Source: a bacterium (lineage in GTDB: Bacteria > Margulisbacteria > Marinamargulisbacteria > SXXA01). Taken from it: a DNA stretch of 14,839 nt. Under the pieces are notes generated by a model, which had not been told where the DNA came from, did no database searches, and worked only from the letters and a program-made list of their open reading frames with translations. Every line of letters begins with the position of its first letter. Position 1 is the stretch's first letter. A program made the position numbers and the translations under genes. Of this stretch, positions 2 through 14,839 are shown piece by piece. The stretch is taken from contig RGUG01000013.1 of the NCBI GenBank assembly GCA_010027915.1, forward strand, positions 1 to 14,839, read 5' to 3'.

Positions 2-2170
2 TTTTTGGGTGAAAAAAAAGCCACCCCGCCCCCCCTGTCATGGGACACTCTTCAAGCCGAACGTCAGAGTATTACCTCGTCATTGGCATTGTTGATCGAA
101 AAAATAACATCCGCACTCGAAAAACGACCCACTTTAACGGAGCATCAGGGGGATTATGACAAGGAATCCCAAGCGTTGCGACTGGTGATGCAACAACGCC
201 AAAAAGAATACAATGCCATCGAAGCGGACGTGCTACAAACCCAACAAGAAATCAAAATAAAGCATATCGAGCGTCAGGAACTCCAATTGCAGTTGGATCA
301 CAGCCTCAATCTGCTGTCTCAAACCACCCAAACAACGGGACCTGAATACCAGCGACGGCTATTTGATCAACAATCCCTTCAAAAGAGTATTCAAAACAAA
401 GAGACCTTGGTCCATACATTGGGCAACCTGCTGGCCATGAAAGAGCGTCGATTGTCAGAATCGAAAATGGCCCTTGATAGGGCCAGCGAAGCGGTAGCCT
501 CACGAGACAAAGCCATTGGTTTTGATCGTCGCACATTATGGCAGTTTGACACGGCATTATCAAAAAAAGTGGGTGACTTGATCTCATACCAATCGTGGGC
601 TAAGGGATATGAAGCCCGATTAAAAAAAGTGAATCAGACCCAACCCAACCCATCTGCCTTTGCATTGGAATGGTCTGAACTGGCCAGCGGCAACCGTCAA
701 ATCGAAGCCGTTTTGAAGCTTGTCGCTCAAGTCTCCCTAACGGTTCCTCCCCCATCCCAACCCAAGCCGCGGCCTGATAAGACACATTGGTTGCAACAGT
801 CTTATTGGGCCATGGGTGCCCGTTGTGGGTATCAGTGGTTGTCGGACCCCACCTATACTGACGGGCCGGTCTGTGGGGCACATGTATGGGGTGATGGGGG
901 TAACGGCTGGGCATTTCGTGCCGGCATGTCCTGGGTGTCGGCCATGAAGCAATACCGAAGCAAATCAGTATGGCAAACCCAATGGCACCTCATGCCACGT
1001 CTGCTAACGGCATTGGATGGGGCGGTTTATGGCATCCTGGGGGGACGTTGGGATGAGGTATCGGCGGGACTTTCCCCGGAGTATGGGGCCAATGTGATGG
1101 GAAGTGTGGATGTGGTGGGGGGAAAAGAATGGGGGATTTCGCTCTCAGTCAATCGACGATTGGGAGAATTTTCCCCTCCCGAAGAGGCCATGCCCCGTCT
1201 GGAATCCTCCCTATCACCACATCTTTCGTTGGGGGTTGAAGGGGTCAAACGAATTTTTCGTTTTAAAACGGTCTCACTGGATGGCTTGAAGGGTCACTGG
1301 GCCCAATCGGATATCGAGCGGATGGTCAAACTGGGATTGCTAGATGACACCCAAGCACCCATTTTACCCAATCGGCTCTTAACCTTTTTAGAGGCGGCAC
1401 GCATGATCGCGTTTGCCAAAAATGCGCCGGTACTGTTGGCATCGGAACCCCTTCGTATTTGGTTTACCATCTCTAACACGGAAGGGGTTCCCGTTTTGGT
1501 AGGGTTAGAAGCATTGGGTCCCGATGGCAAGACGGTGGGTACACTCATTGAGCGTCAGGTATACCCAGAAGGCCAACACATGTTATCTTGGGATACCCCC
1601 GTGTTATTACCTGATATGACCGTTCCCCTATCCCTATCGGTGGTGTTGTCATTGTGGGATCAAGGGGGAAATACCTTGGCCCAAGAACAATTAGAGATAC
1701 CCGTCATGATGTATGATTCCCTTGGTAAAGTGGAGGCGGCACTGGCTAGAAAATCCGACACGATGCAAACCCAACGTCGCTTGTTTTCAGAATGGCAAGC
1801 CATGGGGAATGCCAGCACCAGCTTGACCTCGGCACAAAACCTAAAAAATCGTCCCAAGGCCACAAAAATCAATCCAAATGGGGAGTTGTCACGCCTTTCA
1901 TTTGTGATGGCGGTGAGTAATGTGATCAAGTCCATTCGTGGTCTCAAAACCGTGACCACCTCTGATTTAAGTCCTTACCGGGATGTGGACTCCTTTCCCA
2001 AAGACGCCATGAATAGCTTGTATCTTTACACCACTGAATTGGAATACGGTGGCGATACCAACGGCAATTTGCGCCCGTTTTCCAACATCACGTTGGCTGA
2101 AGCCAGTCGAATTGTCTCGCGGTTATTGGATTGGCAAGAAAAAAGAACGGGGATATTGATACCACGCTAA
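2..2170 (+). CDS. SLH-domain envelope protein with coiled coil, barrel-like region and FlgD-like Ig domain (5' end outside window)
   Basis: Reading frame is open to the left edge; the only early initiation codon is a TTG at 5, so the gene probably begins upstream. About 721 residues are visible. Residues ~15-245 are charged, Gln/Glu/Lys-rich and heptad-like, suggesting a long coiled coil. A Pro-rich linker (~248-260) leads to a Gly/Trp/aromatic stretch (~265-425) with alternating hydrophobicity (GAHVWGDGGNGWAF, GAVYGILGGRWDEVSAGL) that could be outer-membrane beta strands. An SLH repeat starts near 427 (GLKGHWAQSDIERMVKLGLL). Residues ~480-575 resemble a FlgD-type Ig fold (GTLIERQVYPEGQHMLSWD). 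A second SLH-like block lies near 656-705 (SPYRDVDSFPKDAMNSLYLY). SLH domains bind cell-wall-linked polymers, so a role anchoring the outer membrane or surface layer to the wall is inferred. It is convergent with pdxJ, only 13 nt away. Confidence 0.75.
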   Translation, partial: FLGEKKATPPPLSWDTLQAERQSITSSLALLIEKITSALEKRPTLTEHQGDYDKESQALRLVMQQRQKEYNAIEADVLQTQQEIKIKHIERQELQLQLDHSLNLLSQTTQTTGPEYQRRLFDQQSLQKSIQNKETLVHTLGNLLAMKERRLSESKMALDRASEAVASRDKAIGFDRRTLWQFDTALSKKVGDLISYQSWAKGYEARLKKVNQTQPNPSAFALEWSELASGNRQIEAVLKLVAQVSLTVPPPSQPKPRPDKTHWLQQSYWAMGARCGYQWLSDPTYTDGPVCGAHVWGDGGNGWAFRAGMSWVSAMKQYRSKSVWQTQWHLMPRLLTALDGAVYGILGGRWDEVSAGLSPEYGANVMGSVDVVGGKEWGISLSVNRRLGEFSPPEEAMPRLESSLSPHLSLGVEGVKRIFRFKTVSLDGLKGHWAQSDIERMVKLGLLDDTQAPILPNRLLTFLEAARMIAFAKNAPVLLASEPLRIWFTISNTEGVPVLVGLEALGPDGKTVGTLIERQVYPEGQHMLSWDTPVLLPDMTVPLSLSVVLSLWDQGGNTLAQEQLEIPVMMYDSLGKVEAALARKSDTMQTQRRLFSEWQAMGNASTSLTSAQNLKNRPKATKINPNGELSRLSFVMAVSNVIKSIRGLKTVTTSDLSPYRDVDSFPKDAMNSLYLYTTELEYGGDTNGNLRPFSNITLAEASRIVSRLLDWQEKRTGILIPR

Positions 2171-5391: not shown

Positions 5392-6360
5392 ATGAATGAT
5401 GAGGCGTTTTTTATTAGCATTTGTATTACAGGGGCATCAGGTTTTATTGGCACCCATTTGGTTAGGGGGTGTGTGGCAGCAGGCCATCGGGTGGTAGCCT
5501 TCGATCGGTCCCCTTGCCCGAATCCGCTTGAATGGCACGGCCAAGCGGTTGAATGGGTACTTGGGGATGTCACGGACCCAGTGGCAGTGGGGCGTGCGTT
5601 CAATGGGTGCGAGGCGGTGTTTCATCATGCGGCGGAAGTGTCAGTCCATGATTCTATTCATCGACCACTCGATACCTTTCATACCAATGTGCAGGGTACC
5701 GCCGTGGTCTTAGAAATGGCCCGAACCCACGGTGTGTCATTGCTTACCTTTCCATCCTCAGCAGCGGTCTATGGCAACAGCGACCATCCCGTGCAATCTG
5801 AAACCGACCCCATTGCTCCCTTGTCTCCCTATGGGGTGAGCAAGTGGATGGGTGAATGCTTGTGTCAAGCTTACCAACAACAATACCAATTAAATTGTCT
5901 GGTCTTACGGTACTTTAATGTCGTTGGCAAAGGCCAGTCTCCCAACTCGCCCTACGCAGCGGTGATTCCCAGGTGGATTGAACAAATAGAAAAAGGGATG
6001 CCCTTGTCTATTTATGGCGACGGCATGCAAACCCGCGATTTTGTGTCAGTGGACGTGATTGTCGCCCTTCATTTGCACGCATTGGGTCGTCAGGCCCCCC
6101 ATCACCCACTCAATGTGGGATCCGGAAACGCCATGACGGTTGCAACATTAGCCGACGTGCTGCAATCCGTCATGGAAAGGGAGGTGGGGGTGACCCATTA
6201 CCCCCCACGCAACCAGGAAGTACGGCACTCGTGTGCCAATACCCAGTCCATTCATCGCATGTTTCCGGGCTTAAAAATCGAGGCATTGGCCCATACCCTT
6301 CGTCAATGGGTATCCCCCCATCAAGACACTAACACATGTCACATGCCATTCAACACCTAG
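5392..6360 (+). CDS. NAD-dependent nucleotide-sugar 4-epimerase (WbpP/Gne/GalE-like)
   Basis: Extended SDR enzyme that probably interconverts UDP-GlcNAc/UDP-GalNAc or UDP-Glc/UDP-Gal. Counting from the ATG at 5392: the Rossmann motif GASGFIG at 14-20, GDVTD near 58-62, FHHAAEVSVHDSI near 77-89, SSAAVYG near 122-128 and YGVSK with Tyr147 and Lys151. The later block RYFNVVGKGQ plus YAAVIPRWI and IYGDGMQTRDFV resembles WbpP/Gne-type UDP-HexNAc epimerases more than classic GalE. The start is uncertain: ATGs at 5344, 5368, 5389 and 5392 are in frame. Family N-termini usually begin five residues before the TG of TGASGF, which falls on an ATT codon at 5413 with GAGG 8 nt upstream. The operon promoter on the other strand covers 5352-5380, so I prefer 5392 or later. 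Divergent from the gmhA-like gene. Confidence 0.88.
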   Translation: MNDEAFFISICITGASGFIGTHLVRGCVAAGHRVVAFDRSPCPNPLEWHGQAVEWVLGDVTDPVAVGRAFNGCEAVFHHAAEVSVHDSIHRPLDTFHTNVQGTAVVLEMARTHGVSLLTFPSSAAVYGNSDHPVQSETDPIAPLSPYGVSKWMGECLCQAYQQQYQLNCLVLRYFNVVGKGQSPNSPYAAVIPRWIEQIEKGMPLSIYGDGMQTRDFVSVDVIVALHLHALGRQAPHHPLNVGSGNAMTVATLADVLQSVMEREVGVTHYPPRNQEVRHSCANTQSIHRMFPGLKIEALAHTLRQWVSPHQDTNTCHMPFNT

Positions 6361-7382
6361 GTAACTGTGGGCATCAAAGACCACATATTGGGTCTTGTCA
6401 CCATTGTCCTTACCCACCGTCCCCATTGTTCACGAGGGCCAGTAAGGCCACTGGGATGTTTCAACATATCACCCATCGCCGTTATCTCAGGAGTGCCCCA
6501 TCTCGAGAACAAATCCAGGCCATTGAGACCTTGCTTCGGTCCATCATTTTGATTGGATTAAACAGAGCAGCTCATATGGAGAAGGGTAAACAAAATAACC
6601 CAGAACTCACTTCAACCGCCCAGTTTTTCAGGCAACACCCGGTTACCCCGCCCTACCTGTTGTCACCCTTTCGCCTAGCAAATGAGAGCGAATGGGTGCC
6701 CCTGCATCTATCCCACTCACCCCCTAATGACACCGAATGGTGGGACCACCTGCGTTGTATTCTCGACACCCTCTTAACGGGTCCACATGATTCACGATAT
6801 GAAAAGCAGTGTTTAGAAGAGATCAAGGCCATTCTCTTTCCAGATCAGCACGATTCGACGCCCCCCACGTCACCACTCAGTCGGTTATATGCGCACCCAA
6901 CTCAACGACTCATCCAATTGGCCAATACCTTTCAATTGCAGTATCAGAAGATGCACCAAAAAAGCCCCCCTTATCCTAACCAATCGTTTCTTAATCGTGC
7001 CGATCACACCTTATTACGCTTTCGCCCAATCGATGGGTTCCCATCAGACATTCAACCCATTGTCACCCCCCGATCCCAAGAAACAGCCCCTGTTGATCGC
7101 CCATCCCGTCCCATTAACCCAAAACCAAAGGCTTGTATAGGAGCCGCCGTCAGCCAACCGGGACCTGGCCAAGTATCCTCCCCTCGGTTGGCACCCGTGC
7201 GAATATCCCCACCTATCCTGGCACCCACGCGGCCAAGACCCTCATCCCCCTGCCCTCCCCCAGAAAAGGAAGTGATACCCGCATGGCGTGTCATGGCTGA
7301 TTGGATCAGTGGGATGTGGGATCATCCCCATCATTCTGAGGGGGGTTATCAAAAGTATCCAATCAAAAAACAGTGGGAATGA
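6336..7382 (+). CDS. Unrecognised protein with proline/arginine-rich C-terminal half
   Basis: No family recognised. The frame encodes up to 348 residues and begins inside the last codons of the epimerase gene (25-nt overlap), with no convincing ribosome site there. An in-frame ATG at 6456 (Met41, MFQHITHRR) avoids the overlap, which would give 308 residues; its SD is also weak (AAGG ~12 nt upstream). The N-terminal part (41-205) looks soluble and partly helical. From ~225 to 320 it is rich in Pro, Arg and Ser, with a short imperfect repeat, LAPVRISPP then LAPTRPRPS, seen also in the DNA. The tail has several Trp residues (AWRVMADWISGMW). No signal peptide or clear membrane segment is seen. 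It is on the same strand between the epimerase and menB, 89 nt before menB. Length and lack of stops support a real gene, but composition is atypical. Confidence 0.55.
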   Translation: MSHAIQHLGNCGHQRPHIGSCHHCPYPPSPLFTRASKATGMFQHITHRRYLRSAPSREQIQAIETLLRSIILIGLNRAAHMEKGKQNNPELTSTAQFFRQHPVTPPYLLSPFRLANESEWVPLHLSHSPPNDTEWWDHLRCILDTLLTGPHDSRYEKQCLEEIKAILFPDQHDSTPPTSPLSRLYAHPTQRLIQLANTFQLQYQKMHQKSPPYPNQSFLNRADHTLLRFRPIDGFPSDIQPIVTPRSQETAPVDRPSRPINPKPKACIGAAVSQPGPGQVSSPRLAPVRISPPILAPTRPRPSSPCPPPEKEVIPAWRVMADWISGMWDHPHHSEGGYQKYPIKKQWE

Positions 7383-9696: not shown

Positions 9697-10944
9697 CTAG
9701 GAAGAAAGATATCGCAGTTCAAGTTGGGTATCCTCAATGGCATCAGGGAAATGGGTGTGTAAAAATAATGTCAGCCCCCCTTCAAATAACACGGCATCGT
9801 ACCATTGATCCAAATGGGTCAGGCTACTTTTGAGTAGTGAAGGAATAAAAACCGATAATTCTCTGGTGTTAATGGCCCTGTTTTTTTGGCGTCGCCACGC
9901 AATCAATTCGGCTAATAGGGTCATCCGGAATGGAAGTGTAACGGTTAAGGAAGGCACCGCCGTCAAGGCCCCAGGTAACAAGGTGTGATAGTGACTGCGT
10001 TGAATAGCCCGCCCCATCACCTGTAACAGTTGGTACGCACGGAATGGTTTTTGGAGATAATCGGATGCCCCTTGTTTAAAGGCGGTTTGAATTAATTCAA
10101 GCTCATGATACGCCGTTAATATGACCATTTCACTGTGAGGTGAATGATCACGAATCGGAGTCATGAGATCCAGCCCGGATCCATCTGGTAACCCGATATC
10201 CAATATCGCCAGTTGCCAATGAGTCGTACCATCCAACAACCCTTTTGCTTCATGAATGCTAGATGCAATGGTAACCTGGCAATGCCCTTTGGAATGCAAG
10301 AGGGCTTGAATGGGGGCTGCAATCATGGGTTCATCTTCAAGTAGCAAGACCTGGGCAAGGGGTGGGGATGCTAAAAGGCCCTGTGTTAATTGATCCGCCA
10401 GCCGTTGGGACTCTTCGTTTTTGGTGCACCCAAATAAAATTAAAAAATCCGAGGGCCCAAGGGTTTGACCTTCCTGACGACGCTTGCTTAACAACTCGTG
10501 GGCCAACGCCAATCGCACATCCATTTGTGATATCATTTTTTTTTGCATCAACTGCTCGGTTTGATCAAACCAGTTGGCTTGTGATCGAATTTGTTGAAGG
10601 TACGTGCCCAACACCCGGGATGACACATCATAGGTAAGGTATACATAGGCCCCCAACCCCATGCTGGCAATGGCCCAATCAGGATTCGAGGTGGGAGCCA
10701 ACACGACAACTTCTTGATACGGAGAAACCAGTTTTAGGTGCTCTAACACCGCCAAGCCGTCTTCATCTGGCACCAGCAAATCCAATACGATGGGGGCTTG
10801 CGACATGTAGGGATTGGCATGAAGGGAATCGATCACCGATGCAAATGTAGGTAAATAAAGCACTTGTTGGGTCTGGTCTAAGTCATTTTTTAGTCCACTT
10901 GCACCATCTTTAAATGGCCCAATGAGTACCACCGATTGAATCAT
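9697..10944 (-). CDS. Protein with two receiver (REC) domains, first one degenerate, and unknown C-terminal region
   Basis: 415 residues from the ATG at 10944, preceded by GGAGG at 10954-10950; a longer in-frame reading to 11055 lacks a ribosome site. REC1 (~1-120) keeps a possible phosphoacceptor, Asp55 (IVLDLLVPDEDG), and Thr85, but lacks the N-terminal acidic pair and the conserved Lys (YVYLTYD at 100-106). REC2 (~197-315) is intact: acidic cluster E203-D204-E205, phosphoacceptor Asp249 (LAILDIGLPDGSG), Thr277 (VILTAYH) and Lys299 (DYLQKPF). The helical linker (~120-195) has no named domain. The last ~100 residues carry no recognisable DNA-binding, GGDEF, EAL, CheY-phosphatase or kinase motif. 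No histidine kinase is adjacent, so it is an orphan regulator, perhaps acting by protein-protein contact. REC2 identity is secure; the overall role is unknown. Confidence 0.85.
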   Translation of the reverse strand: MIQSVVLIGPFKDGASGLKNDLDQTQQVLYLPTFASVIDSLHANPYMSQAPIVLDLLVPDEDGLAVLEHLKLVSPYQEVVVLAPTSNPDWAIASMGLGAYVYLTYDVSSRVLGTYLQQIRSQANWFDQTEQLMQKKMISQMDVRLALAHELLSKRRQEGQTLGPSDFLILFGCTKNEESQRLADQLTQGLLASPPLAQVLLLEDEPMIAAPIQALLHSKGHCQVTIASSIHEAKGLLDGTTHWQLAILDIGLPDGSGLDLMTPIRDHSPHSEMVILTAYHELELIQTAFKQGASDYLQKPFRAYQLLQVMGRAIQRSHYHTLLPGALTAVPSLTVTLPFRMTLLAELIAWRRQKNRAINTRELSVFIPSLLKSSLTHLDQWYDAVLFEGGLTLFLHTHFPDAIEDTQLELRYLSS

Positions 10945-10949
10945 AACAT

Positions 10950-10954
10950 CCTCC
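10950..10954 (-). promoter_or_regulatory. Shine-Dalgarno of the two-receiver gene
   Basis: GGAGG on the - strand, 5 nt before the ATG at 10944. It selects this start over the longer reading frame that begins at 11055. Confidence 0.75.
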
Positions 10955-10968
10955 CTTTTTTGTGCGAC

Positions 10969-10997
10969 AACCCGTTCATTCCCTGGGAAATGGGGTT
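10969..10997. promoter_or_regulatory. Imperfect dyad upstream of the two-receiver gene (possible operator or leader hairpin)
   Basis: On the + strand AACCC (10969-10973) and CATTCCC (10977-10983) face GGGAAATG (10985-10992) and GGGTT (10993-10997). The arms pair with one bulged A and an unpaired GTT. It lies 15 nt upstream of the ribosome site of the receiver gene. No specific regulator is implied. Confidence 0.3.
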
Positions 10998-11082
10998 TAA
11001 AACCCATTGCCAGGCATGCGGTGGATGGCATCAATAAGGGAATCATTCGTGCCATATCTGGTTAAATCGCACCTCATACGTG

Positions 11083-11101: not shown

Positions 11102-11178
11102 GGGCCCATAGCTCAGTTGGTCAGAGCAGCCGGCTCATAACCGGTAGGTCCCAGGTTCAAGTCCTGGTGGGCCCACCA
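11102..11178 (+). tRNA. tRNA with CAU anticodon, probably tRNA-Ile2 (lysidine type), else elongator tRNA-Met
   Basis: A complete 77-nt cloverleaf with encoded CCA. The acceptor GGGCCCA pairs with TGGGCCC, discriminator A. The D stem is GCTC/GAGC, the anticodon stem GCCGG/CCGGT with loop CTCATAA (anticodon CAT), and the T stem CCAGG/CCTGG with loop TTCAAGT. G1-C72 pairing and the absence of three G-C pairs next to the anticodon rule out the initiator. C4-G69 and C5-G68 are acceptor features linked to TilS recognition of tRNA-Ile2 in E. coli, so Ile2 is favoured. A short inverted repeat (GGTTTTA 11189-11195, TAAAACC 11208-11214) follows, without a T-run. Confidence 0.95.
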
Positions 11179-11244
11179 TATCACCACTGGTTTTACTCTC
11201 TTGTGGCTAAAACCCAATACACGGCTCGTAACACGTAACGCAAA

Positions 11245-11362
11245 GGGTTTCGTCTGTAACCCATCAAAAAGTGTGGGGAGTAAGAGGCTAACCGGCGTGC
11301 ATTAACGGTGGGATTGCCTCCCCTTACTCAAGGGATCAAGTTCGGCACATTACCCTAGTGCC
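11245..11362 (+). ncRNA. Possible structured RNA: consecutive stem-loops downstream of the tRNA
   Basis: Four helices can be drawn in 118 nt. GGGTT/AACCC (11245-11249 with 11258-11262). GAGTAAG/CTTACTC (11278-11284 with 11323-11329), continued by AGGC/GCCT (11285-11288 with 11316-11319) across a CCC bulge. Inside it ACCG/CGGT (11291-11294 with 11306-11309). Then GGCAC/GTGCC (11344-11348 with 11358-11362). Strand is assumed from the upstream tRNA. No known RNA family was recognised. Confidence 0.25.
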
Positions 11363-11606
11363 TCTAAAATGCCCGTCCCTGCCATTCAATTCATTGGCGT
11401 GATCAATGTATTTTTTATCTGGTTTTGAAGGCTTGGTAACTAGCACATGAGGTTTGCAAGGGTCATGTCAATAAGTGAAATGGGTCAGATGACATCATGG
11501 TTACTTTGACCACAGGATTGTTGGTTACCAACCCAAATTTCCCAAACGCTTCGGTAGCAACGCCAGCTCAATTTACCACAGTGCTTATCAATCGTAGGGC
11601 GGCTAG

Positions 11607-11975
11607 AAAAGCGGTGCATTCGAAAAAAGAGTCTCTATCTTTGGCTTGATTGACCGGGGGAAGTACCGTAATGAGCACACCATCTACAACCCATACGATG
11701 TCCGGTTGACGTGTATGCCCGGCCCTTTAATCGCACCCTGATTGAGGGCCACTGACTGGTGTTCGGGTGTCACTCAAGCATGGGTAGGAAGTACGGGGTT
11801 CACCACCCCCTTGACGCTACTTGGGCACCCCACCAACCAGCCGCTGCTGGTCGTATCGGTAATCCGACGGCAAGGACGGGATGCCCACGTCTTGCCACAG
11901 ACTTACAACATGCTCAGAAGCAGCGGGGATGATGTTTCCCCGCATGATAACACAACCCCTCGTACGGGGTTATAA
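11607..11975 (+). pseudogene. Possible decayed reading frame (IS4-like transposase remnant is one option)
   Basis: One frame runs from 11607 to its TAA at 11973-11975, interrupted only by a TGA at 11739-11741. Before the stop it contains GLIDRGKYRNEHTIYNPYD, after it LLVVSVIRRQGRDAHVL. These loosely recall the DRG segment and the later VVR-x-GR segment of DDE transposases. No terminal inverted repeats or target duplication were found and the likeness is weak. It may be chance. Confidence 0.15.
11923..11971. repeat. Two adjacent perfect hairpins
   Basis: GCGGGGA (11923-11929) pairs with TCCCCGC (11937-11943) around a 7-nt loop. 10 nt further, AACCCC (11954-11959) pairs with GGGGTT (11966-11971) around TCGTAC. 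No T-run follows on either strand, so neither is a classic terminator. Confidence 0.4.
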
Positions 11976-12011
11976 AGAGCATGAAACAAGAGGTAAGCTG
12001 GTCATGTGGGC

Positions 12012-12046
12012 AAAAAAAGAATGACTGGTGCAATGGACTCACAGTC
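12012..12046 (-). terminator. Rho-independent terminator of the LonB-like AAA+ gene
   Basis: Immediately after the TGA stop on the - strand, GACTGTG (12046-12040) pairs with CA-C-CAGTC (12030-12023; one bulged C) around a 9-nt loop. ATTC and then seven T residues (12018-12012) follow. Confidence 0.6.
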
Positions 12047-14635
12047 TCAATGGGGCTGAGGGGAGTGTCGTCTAAGCTCTGGACCTGAACTTACCTCAAT
12101 GTCTCCCAGTCCATTTGAATTCACGCCTGTCTGCCCATCAGTGTCTATAGTTAAGATCTGGAAACGCCCACTTTTGGTCAGAATTTCCAAAAGAGCTGAG
12201 TATTGAGTAGTGGATACCCCCAACACAAAGGTTCCAAGAAAAGGACCATGTCCGCAAACCGTTGGGACCGAACGCTCCGTGATCATGCTGGCGATTCGCA
12301 TTTGCTCTTCTTTAGTGGCAGAACCAAAATGAGGGTCAATGAGTAGCGATCCCCACGACAAGGTGTTTTCGCCTATTTTTAAACGCTGGGTAGGTGGCAT
12401 TAAGGGATTCTGACGCCACTGCCCTTCTCTTTCTTGACGTGTCATGTTGGTTATCATGGGTCGAATACCCAAAGAATCGGCTGGTACGACCAGTACCACG
12501 GGGGTTTGATCATCTTTGGCCGTAACCCATTGGTTGGCATCGTGCAAGGTTTTGGCAATGGCCAGCGTTGACATCCAGTTACTAAGGGCGATCAACATCA
12601 CCTTAAATAAATAGATCAAGGAATGAAAAGAATCAAATTGTTTTAAGCTTTTGATAATCGCTGTATCGGATGCCGACACACCAGGTATAAGGCATGTGTC
12701 ATGGGAGGTGATGAGGTCATTGACCACATGTCCCTTGTACGCCTCTATCAACAAAAAAAACAGGCTGTAAGCCCCGATGAGTAATTTGCCTGTATGCGTT
12801 AAAACGGCCAGGGCATTTTTTTTGGATTGTAACGTTTTGTTCATGTGATGGCATTGCTCGGCCGTCATCAGTTTAAGCCGAACCCCACCCTCATGAGGAA
12901 ACGCCACCAGGCCCATTGAAAGATTCTCTGCTTGCTTCAGTTCATCTAGCTTTTTTGTGATCAAGGCTTCAATCCGAGTCATCTCTGATGGGTCGTCGCT
13001 TACTATCATTAACGCCGGAATGGGTTGAATCATTGCGGGCTGAATCTCATCAACCCAACACCCTTCCGGGCTAGCGCTAACCCATTGCGACAGCTTCTGC
13101 AAACGATTCCAATAGGCATGGCATATGCCATCAATCATCTCCTGATGGGATTGAGTAGAATGATCAACGCAACGCAACGCACTTTCTAAACGTGGCCCAT
13201 CTAATATGACACCCTGTTGGTTGGCACTCGATAACGCCATCCATAACCGGCGGTTCACTCGAATCGAATCGGTGGCGACGGTAATATGTTCAAGTAATAC
13301 ACGCCATGCCCCATCGGTAAGGCGAGGTAAGTCACCTGACTGACTTTTATGATGGATTAATTGCATCAAACGAAAGGTATGATTGTTGCCTGGGTCAGGG
13401 AAAATAGAGGGATGTTGTAACATTGTGACCATCTTTGAACGGGAGAGTAATGGGTGAATGGCCTCCGGGTGATTGGTCGTGCCCAAGATGAGCATTGAAA
13501 AAGGGAGTCGTAGGGTACTGCCAGGTAGTTGAAAATAGTTGTTTGTCATATGGTTTAGGAGCATCGATTGCTGATGGGTCGATAGCTGGTCAAGATTCTC
13601 GCAAATAACAGGGTTTCCAAATGATGAGGCGGCTTTGCCAAGCATCAAACGTTGTGACGGTACTGCTGCATTGGGATCCTCCCATCCCGATAACTCATGA
13701 AACGATAAGTCACCCACTACCACGGGGACCCCTTCGCACGAAAAAATAGACGGGGTGTCGTCGTGCCGATGTTTGTCAACATTACCCAATAACCACAACA
13801 GGACAAACCCCTGGCAGGCCAACAAAAGATCATTAAACAATTGACACGCATAGGAATAATTAAAGGCCATCGTAAACAATGGCTTGTCTCGATACAGCGT
13901 TTCATCGCTTACATACTCATGGGGTCCCATCATGTTTTGGCCTAAGGTGGCATAGCGTATTGGGTCAGGCAATGAGTCTAAGTCCATGTCTTGGCATACC
14001 ACCATTCGGTCAGCAGAGGGAATCAATTTAGCGGCAAAATAAGCATAGTTCGCCATGATATAACCCAAGGTCATCAATACACCCCCGGCCAACGCCTTCC
14101 CTTTGCGTTCCCTCTGTGTTTTGAGTTTCTCCCGATCGGCTAAGACCCTATCGATTTGCTCACGGGTGCTAAGGTAATAGGCGTCTTTCTGCCCCTCACG
14201 GATCACCATTACGTACCGTTGTTGAAGGCCAAGACGCTCTCGCTGGGTCTTAAGATACTCACACAAAGCCAACATGAGGCTGGTTTTGCCATCACCATAA
14301 TCACCATGCAAGACCAACAATGAAGAAAGGGGGGGCAATCTCTTAAACAACGAGGAAGGCAGATCTTGAATAGGAATTCCTTTGGCACTGTCACCTGCAT
14401 AATTAATGCAGCAAGTAATCAAGTCATGATAATGAGTTAAAAAAGTATCTACGGTGTTTTTAAATCTTTGAATAGTCTCTGAATGGCCCACAATACCTGA
14501 AAAAGGATCCGATAAAAGCGGGTATTGGGCTAAGGTTGACTGAATAAGAGTAGTGGGTGTGCCAGGATCATTCGAACGGGCGGTGGTAACACATTGTAAA
14601 GGTGAGGTAGAAGGTAACGCAATAATACGAAACAT
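12047..14635 (-). CDS. Large membrane AAA+ protein with two tandem LonB-like modules, no Lon protease domain
   Basis: 862 residues. Module 1: IVG-x6-RF lead-in at 48-58, Walker A GDYGDGKT (111-118), hydrophobic segments near 181-203 and 262-284, then VVVGDLSFHELSG (305-317), PSQRLMLG (326-333), a degenerate Walker B (VICENLDQL, 343-351), sensor-1-like LGTTN (384-388), Arg finger candidate R399, and a helical lid (~438-490). A membrane insert between Walker A and B, followed by a GD-x-H and P-x-x-R-L/V-x-x-G block, is the layout of archaeal-type LonB. Module 2 repeats it: hydrophobic segments ~615-632 and ~670-695, PPTQRLKIG (747-755), SLLIDPHF (763-770), EEQMRIASMI (776-785) and FVLGVSTT (803-810), but has no Walker A. 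The Ser-Lys protease domain of Lon is absent. ATG at 14635 has a G-rich SD-like AAAGGGGG. Function unknown; assignment is by eye. Confidence 0.65.
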   Translation of the reverse strand: MFRIIALPSTSPLQCVTTARSNDPGTPTTLIQSTLAQYPLLSDPFSGIVGHSETIQRFKNTVDTFLTHYHDLITCCINYAGDSAKGIPIQDLPSSLFKRLPPLSSLLVLHGDYGDGKTSLMLALCEYLKTQRERLGLQQRYVMVIREGQKDAYYLSTREQIDRVLADREKLKTQRERKGKALAGGVLMTLGYIMANYAYFAAKLIPSADRMVVCQDMDLDSLPDPIRYATLGQNMMGPHEYVSDETLYRDKPLFTMAFNYSYACQLFNDLLLACQGFVLLWLLGNVDKHRHDDTPSIFSCEGVPVVVGDLSFHELSGWEDPNAAVPSQRLMLGKAASSFGNPVICENLDQLSTHQQSMLLNHMTNNYFQLPGSTLRLPFSMLILGTTNHPEAIHPLLSRSKMVTMLQHPSIFPDPGNNHTFRLMQLIHHKSQSGDLPRLTDGAWRVLLEHITVATDSIRVNRRLWMALSSANQQGVILDGPRLESALRCVDHSTQSHQEMIDGICHAYWNRLQKLSQWVSASPEGCWVDEIQPAMIQPIPALMIVSDDPSEMTRIEALITKKLDELKQAENLSMGLVAFPHEGGVRLKLMTAEQCHHMNKTLQSKKNALAVLTHTGKLLIGAYSLFFLLIEAYKGHVVNDLITSHDTCLIPGVSASDTAIIKSLKQFDSFHSLIYLFKVMLIALSNWMSTLAIAKTLHDANQWVTAKDDQTPVVLVVPADSLGIRPMITNMTRQEREGQWRQNPLMPPTQRLKIGENTLSWGSLLIDPHFGSATKEEQMRIASMITERSVPTVCGHGPFLGTFVLGVSTTQYSALLEILTKSGRFQILTIDTDGQTGVNSNGLGDIEVSSGPELRRHSPQPH

Positions 14636-14700: not shown

Positions 14701-14839
14701 TTATGACGCTGTTTCTTGCAATATATAATGGGTACTTCGTCCCGATCCCCTGGTCATAATCAACCCCTTATTCACCATATCGGTTAACTCTAAATGGGCG
14801 GTTTTGTGTGACACCGAATAAAGCGACCGGTATTTTTTA
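14701..14839 (-). CDS. C-terminal winged-helix tail of a gene truncated by the window edge (Fic-family-like)
   Basis: The last 45 residues of a - strand gene are visible, with stop TAA at 14703-14701. The pattern YSVSHKTAHLELTDMV then NKGLIMTRGSGRSTHYIL is the recognition helix and wing of a winged-helix module. It is the form often found at the C-terminus of Fic proteins and of some ATP-binding regulators (S-x-x-TA-x-x-x-L-x-x-L/M, then G-x-GRST-x-Y). The catalytic part lies outside the window, so the family is not proven. It is 65 nt upstream of the AAA+ gene on the same strand; the two could be cotranscribed or the palindrome gap could hold a separate promoter. Confidence 0.6.
   Translation of the reverse strand, partial: KKYRSLYSVSHKTAHLELTDMVNKGLIMTRGSGRSTHYILQETAS

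Follow-up and report, generated by a model that had tools for sequence, protein, structure and literature searches.

Which kind of protein is encoded by the long minus-strand open reading frame at 12047..14635, which a first-pass annotation had read as a Lon-type membrane ATPase that lost its protease domain and became a tandem by internal duplication? To answer this we analysed the frame, its relatives and its surroundings within the window, i.e. the whole stretch of 14,839 nucleotides. The frame runs from an ATG at 14635 down to 12047, is preceded by a G-rich stretch resembling a ribosome-binding site and encodes a protein of 862 aa (P0001). All features of this protein given below lie on the minus strand. 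Over the same stretch, frame 1 of the plus strand contains 53 stops. A single homologue was found among 5.8 billion proteins, P0002 (883 aa, JGI data). Since P0002 is 53% identical over 93% of P0001, the comparison of the two sequences marks the frame as a real gene.

Both proteins were combined into a two-sequence profile (A1). Searches of the protein collection with P0001, with A1 and with residues 183-290, the latter by dense words, returned only these two proteins after 7994, 7992 and 181 candidates had been scored, respectively. Scans with two peptide patterns for A1 matched 55 stretches in a genome collection of 84,980 species and 46 stretches in viral contigs, none of which was confirmed. 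Six-frame searches with A1 provided only short partial matches, with E ≤ 0.01 in 19 of the 285 genomes from the phylum of an Omnitrophota MAG and in 5 of the 232 genomes from the phylum of a Chlamydiae MAG. The best match of the latter set (an 869-aa frame, E 5e-4, A1 columns 117-204) was discarded as chance, because on inspection it is a VWA-type membrane protein without P-loop. A tblastn match on a Rhizobium sullae plasmid (24.9% identity, E 0.01), located in the frame of a LysR-like-looking open reading frame, was also attributed to chance. Among PDB sequences P0001 had no match at E ≤ 10, while A1 reached at best E 0.46, for an unrelated small chain, and E 1.2-1.3 for two AAA-type chains. 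No convincing match came from PADLOC (best E 0.025) or from PHROGs (best E 0.13). As far as these searches reach, whose sensitivity is limited, the family of P0001 and P0002 is rare. The literature search turned up no paper on a tandem membrane AAA+ architecture of this type, in agreement with the novelty that had been suspected at first.

The ATPase motifs are best preserved in the first half of P0001. Its Walker A motif, GDYGDGKTS (residues 111-119, 14279..14305), is invariant in P0002 at all nine residues, and a GK[ST] signature is present in half 1 only. Further along the chain follow PSQRLMLG (residues 326-333, 13637..13660), the Walker B strand PVICENLD (residues 342-349, 13589..13612; read from residue 345, CENLDQLS) and the sensor 1 strand MLILGTTN (residues 381-388, 13472..13495). 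In the Walker B strand E346-N347 stand in place of D-E in both members of the family, and a canonical hhhhDE is absent from either half of either protein. K117, N388 and R399 are unchanged between P0001 and P0002; of these, R399 is our guess, by inspection, for a candidate arginine finger. Residues 416-495 (13151..13390) were assigned by inspection as a putative helical lid.

We compared half 1 by hhalign with profiles of known P-loop ATPases. The LonB profile contained six sequences, four bacterial and two haloarchaeal. For the other profiles the rows retained after pattern and length filters came from 6 of 9 loci for LonA, 6 of 8 for AAA_32-type Lon, 10 of 14 for MoxR, 8 of 8 for Mg-chelatase, 5 of 10 for KAP and 5 of 10 for the sigma-54 activators of the NtrC/FlrC type (bEBPs). 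As these profiles are small and the query consists of two sequences, all z values are relative. For residues 293-415, which extend from before the PSQRL motif over Walker B, a helix and a hairpin to sensor 1, the bEBPs scored highest (44.2, z 14.8), followed by MoxR (34.1, z 7.6) and LonB (27.8, z 4.6), each reached by 0 of 60 shuffles. Mg-chelatase (18.2, z 1.6), AAA_32-type Lon (15.6, z 0.4) and LonA (14.5, z -0.3) scored lower. The same top order was obtained for the whole half 1 (bEBP 43.6, MoxR 34.8, LonB 30.3). With Pfam, the AAA family was matched by P0002 above the cut-off of 21.2 bits (22.4) and by P0001 below it (16.4), and P0002 additionally matched Sigma54_activat over 319-378 (E 0.0012, below cut-off). 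Among PDB sequences P0002 matched best with FlrC, a sigma-54 activator, in the segment corresponding to residues 293-415, at a non-significant E of 1.3. By its motifs and profile matches half 1 is thus an AAA+ module, and the profile scores together with the FlrC match place segment 293-415 with AAA+ proteins of the pre-sensor-1-hairpin kind. For the putative lid (residues 405-505) none of six profiles gave a convincing match; the top score, 19.1 for LonA, was reached by 0 of 40 shuffles, yet a single column was aligned.

For the segment from Walker B to sensor 1 the bEBPs are the best profile match. Unlike these activators, P0001 has no GAFTGA loop, with EDPNAAVPS aligned at its place, it carries a membrane insert and a second, degenerate module, and Pfam finds neither a receiver nor a DNA-binding domain. 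The MoxR-type proteins (NorQ, RavA, dynein, midasin) gave the second-best match; P0001 differs from them in its membrane hairpins. VWA domains were not matched among those window proteins that were scanned with Pfam. A tandem of AAA+ modules including a non-hydrolysing one is found in dynein, in which, according to passages of PMC4047620, the ATP at AAA2 seems to be structural. Judged from sequence, P0001 is a new tandem variant among the pre-sensor-1-hairpin AAA+ proteins.

For the region around Walker A (residues 40-182) the highest hhalign score of all profiles tried was that of the KAP NTPases (profile of five proteins; score 54.3, z 19.0, 0 of 40 shuffles). P0001 resembles them in its P-loop region, GDxGxGKTSLM, and P0002 matches Pfam KAP at E 0.22. 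KAP proteins carry inserted helices. These likenesses would suit a KAP-type membrane P-loop NTPase, i.e. a signalling protein with helices inserted in its NTPase domain. The match covers, however, only 27 residues around the P-loop, and the Walker B segment of P0001, which does match pre-sensor-1-hairpin AAA+ proteins, gives no match with KAP (13.4, reached by 33 of 60 shuffles). We give this explanation very little credence.

The layout resembles that of LonB, for which archaeal proteins and a bacterial set served as comparison (PDB 3k1j and 4zpx, titled ATP-dependent protease Lon). Passages of PMC9569914 locate the membrane insert of LonB between Walker A and Walker B, and in a LonB comparison, excerpts of PMC4864567 describe two transmembrane helices within the AAA domain. 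P0001 has, as had been noticed at first, a hydrophobic insert at this place, between K117 and E346, with TM2 found by hydropathy and TM1 by inspection only. The distance from the Walker A Lys to Walker B amounts to 229 residues, next to 169, 169 and 207 in three LonB proteins. The P-x-x-R ahead of Walker B falls into the same column as T-P-x-H-x-R of LonB in a motif alignment that omits two of the six LonB sequences. Region 40-182 scored 27.0 against LonB (z 5.0, 0 of 40 shuffles), and the score of 30.3 for the whole half 1 was attained in none of 150 full shuffles and in one of 150 block shuffles. All this would be expected of a true LonB descendant, in which the protease domain was lost and the membrane AAA+ module duplicated, and which would still actively unfold or dislocate membrane proteins.

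Other data argue against this origin. For region 40-182, LonA (28.5, z 4.6) and the AAA_32 type (26.8, z 3.7) scored about as well as LonB, which ranked third of six profiles both for the Walker B segment and for the whole half 1. The lid region did not match the LonB lid (13.3, reached by 23 of 40 shuffles), half 2 alone matched LonB non-significantly (2 of 60 and 6 of 150 shuffles), and the Walker B Glu is replaced by Asn. A1 was also run against five genomes with LonB, of which four had a match spanning the entire query and the fifth, G018, had split matches. No LonB was recovered (0 to 7 first-look candidates scored in each); the search gave 12 short matches across four of the genomes, with GAFTGA proteins at 5 of the 10 loci fetched. 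The Lon (S16) protease domain was undetected, as had been claimed: Pfam Lon_C was found neither in P0001 (E ≤ 1) nor in P0002 or either half (E ≤ 10), while the positive control, the bacterial LonB L089, matched at 2.5e-12. Pfam LonB_AAA-LID matched neither P0001 nor P0002, a model for which L089 itself attains 19.4 of 22.4 bits, and TIGR00764 (lon_rel) was absent for P0001 at E ≤ 1 and for P0002 at E ≤ 10. With protease domain, LonB lid and TIGR00764 match all undetected, P0001 is not a LonB by membership; its layout is LonB-like and common descent is possible. From the Lon-type origin proposed initially we thus retain the position of the insert, the P-x-x-R and the match around Walker A, and consider descent from LonB itself unlikely though not far-fetched. 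The bacterial LonB set with membrane insert and protease domain comprises L089 and L101-L104; bacterial LonB was matched at full length in 4 of the 148 genomes from the phylum of G016, counting the query's own genome.

We next turn to half 2 (residues 540-832, 12140..13018), a degenerate copy in which residues 706-832 repeat 293-415 and residues 540-705 were assigned by position only. At the position of the P-loop, SDDPSEMTR is found by inspection (residues 546-554, 12974..13000), in line with the reported loss of Walker A. PTQRLKIG (residues 748-755, 12371..12394) repeats residues 326-333, and TFVLGVSTT (residues 802-810, 12206..12232) repeats the sensor 1 strand. In between, the degenerate Walker B strand LLIDPHF (residues 764-770, 12326..12346) has D-P where P0002 has H-S. 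The starts given in the first-pass annotation for the paired motifs (326, 381, 748 and 802) were exact, and so was its remark that neither half has a Walker B D-E. Aligning residues 293-415 with 706-832 by hhalign resulted in a score of 35.2 (P 1.9e-5), compared to a maximum of 20.2 among 200 block shuffles. Controls with mismatched parts scored 13.3 and 12.2, reached by 51 and 93 of 200 shuffles. Aligned in full, the two halves scored 34.0, which no shuffle reached (0 of 150 full, 0 of 150 in blocks of 10). Half 2 hence repeats, at the sequence level, the Walker-B-to-sensor-1 segment of half 1. The front parts (100-295 against 530-712) scored 11.5; because 154 of 200 shuffles equalled this value, repetition there is unsupported by sequence. 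The internal duplication that had been postulated for whole modules accordingly holds for the rear segment and was not recovered for the front.

Taken alone, half 2 did not match any profile tried: its scores were reached by 37 of 60 shuffles for bEBP, 21 of 60 for MoxR and 17 of 40 for KAP, such that the pre-sensor-1-hairpin match at profile level belongs to half 1 only. Pfam yielded nothing notable, its best match being unrelated (E 0.2), and the best PDB match was an FNR/CRP regulator at E 1.8. Together with the front parts lacking sequence repetition, this would agree with half 2 being another domain that shares a local motif with an AAA+ half 1, in place of a duplicated module. By eye, however, both halves present the same order of elements, a strand, a helix, a strand pair, a charged helix and a membrane hairpin, which continues with P-x-Q-R, the Walker B strand, a helix and the sensor strand; we therefore hold a different domain to be improbable. 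AlphaFold2, run once per half with the two sequences, returned mean pLDDT values of 37.5 and 38.0, a confidence too low for its secondary structure to prove the shared order. With pLDDT below 40, we infer the AAA nature of half 2 from half 1, from the shared succession of elements visible by eye and from a hydrophobic hairpin that recurs in the corresponding position. As the chain ends about 30 residues past the repeated segment, half 2 is too short to include a lid.

The hydrophobic segments probably form four membrane helices in all. TM1 (about residues 184-205, 14021..14086) was assigned by inspection and conservation and stays under the hydropathy cut-off in both proteins. TM2 (residues 264-284, 13784..13846) has a hydropathy of 1.70 and passes in both. 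TM3 (about residues 613-632, 12740..12799) reaches 1.46 in P0001 and lies below the cut-off in P0002, and TM4 (residues 673-694, 12554..12619) was found by hydropathy scan. The cut-off alone thus provides three helices in P0001, missing TM1, and two in P0002, missing TM1 and TM3; an extra segment of P0002 at 1.42 overlaps its own sensor 1 strand. In P0001, TM1 and TM3 are each preceded by a K/R-rich flank, which suggests two hairpins running inside-outside-inside; at the second hairpin of P0002 the flanks give no clear positive-inside signal. The predicted extracytoplasmic loops, with sides taken from these flanks, would be formed by residues 206-255 (13871..14020) and 634-668 (12632..12736).

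Within this one pair of sequences, the hairpins with their loops are more conserved than the remainder of the protein: identity amounts to 73% in them (149 of 203) and to 48% in the other residues of 100-832 (256 of 530; Fisher P 6e-10). TM3 does not follow this pattern, as only 11 of the 25 residues in 611-635 recur in P0002. For LonB the reverse was observed, as the Walker B segment exceeded the hydrophobic part in conservation in 6 of 6 pairs, which are not independent. At least one of the two proteins has a Cys in 24 alignment columns, and both have it in just three of these, C214, C274 and C648; C214 and C648 are found one in each predicted outer loop.

What could such a protein do? Passages of PMC13036017 report that a Glu-to-Gln exchange in Walker B of NorQ leaves a low ATPase activity while ATP binding is kept, and that binding stabilises the complex. 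Since Walker B reads E-N in both members of the family, half 1 is by analogy predicted to bind ATP with little hydrolysis, of which D349 or E346 might rescue some. In our preferred reading, to which we assign a probability of about one half, P0001 is a tandem AAA+ membrane protein that couples its ATP state to the membrane or the outer loops and serves as a scaffold, sensor or gate, and not as a protease. Half 1 would bind ATP via its intact P-loop, the sensor 1 Asn and the candidate arginine finger R399, and the exchange of the Walker B Glu for Asn would let it hold ATP and assemble instead of turning over fast. Half 2 would be a non-binding structural copy without lid that acts as ring neighbour or cap. 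Each half would pass a helical hairpin across the membrane and display a loop outside, and the two loops, with one invariant Cys each, are perhaps linked by a disulfide. Ring assembly, ATP trapping, topology, disulfide and coupling are what we infer from these features. A sensor, scaffold or gate is favoured over a plain motor by the constraint being strongest largely in and beyond the membrane.

A more specific version, which we regard as quite unlikely, is a natural membrane ATP-trap, in which half 1 keeps its ATP without turning it over, half 2 closes the ring as a pseudo-module, and two outer loops, linked by a disulfide between C214 and C648, open or close with ATP occupancy. Such a nucleotide-gated gate or sensor of the membrane was not encountered in the literature searched. 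If this holds true, the membrane insert that the cited passages place between the two Walker motifs of LonB can exist without a protease, be duplicated and come under tighter constraint than the ATPase itself. An energy-driven machine would then have become a membrane device controlled by ATP occupancy, a natural counterpart to the engineered Walker B trap mutants.

The neighbours of P0001 in the window do not explain its function. Protein comparisons did not assign the host to a phylum, since MenB reached at most 74% among the best 80 matches kept, spread over many phyla, and PdxJ 50%, with matches in 13 of 23 genomes. A winged-helix-like regulator on the same strand ends 65 bases ahead of the P0001 start and is a possible operon partner. 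Of this regulator the window holds the C-terminal 45 aa (14701-14838, minus strand, truncated at the contig end), which match Pfam DIP2311-like_C at E 1.9e-5 with 25.3 bits (cut-off 27). At the window's other end a coiled-coil-looking protein of 722 aa, open at its 5' side (2-2170, plus strand), has a weak S-layer-homology match near its C-terminus (E 0.0018, below cut-off). For a proline-rich protein of 348 aa (6336-7382, plus strand) Pfam lists no family at E ≤ 1. A 452-aa protein (9697-11055, minus strand) contains two Response_reg stretches, the better one at 236-345, and no output domain was recognised in it. Downstream of P0001 lies a tRNA-Met gene on the opposite strand. The roughly 870 bases between both genes (11179-12046) contain no minus-strand open reading frame of at least 60 aa and gave no Rfam match at E ≤ 0.5. 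Opposite the tRNA-Met gene (11102-11176, minus strand), Rfam RF04354 (plastid ycf2 5'UTR) scored 49.5 with a cut-off of 65.7, apparently an antisense echo of the tRNA.
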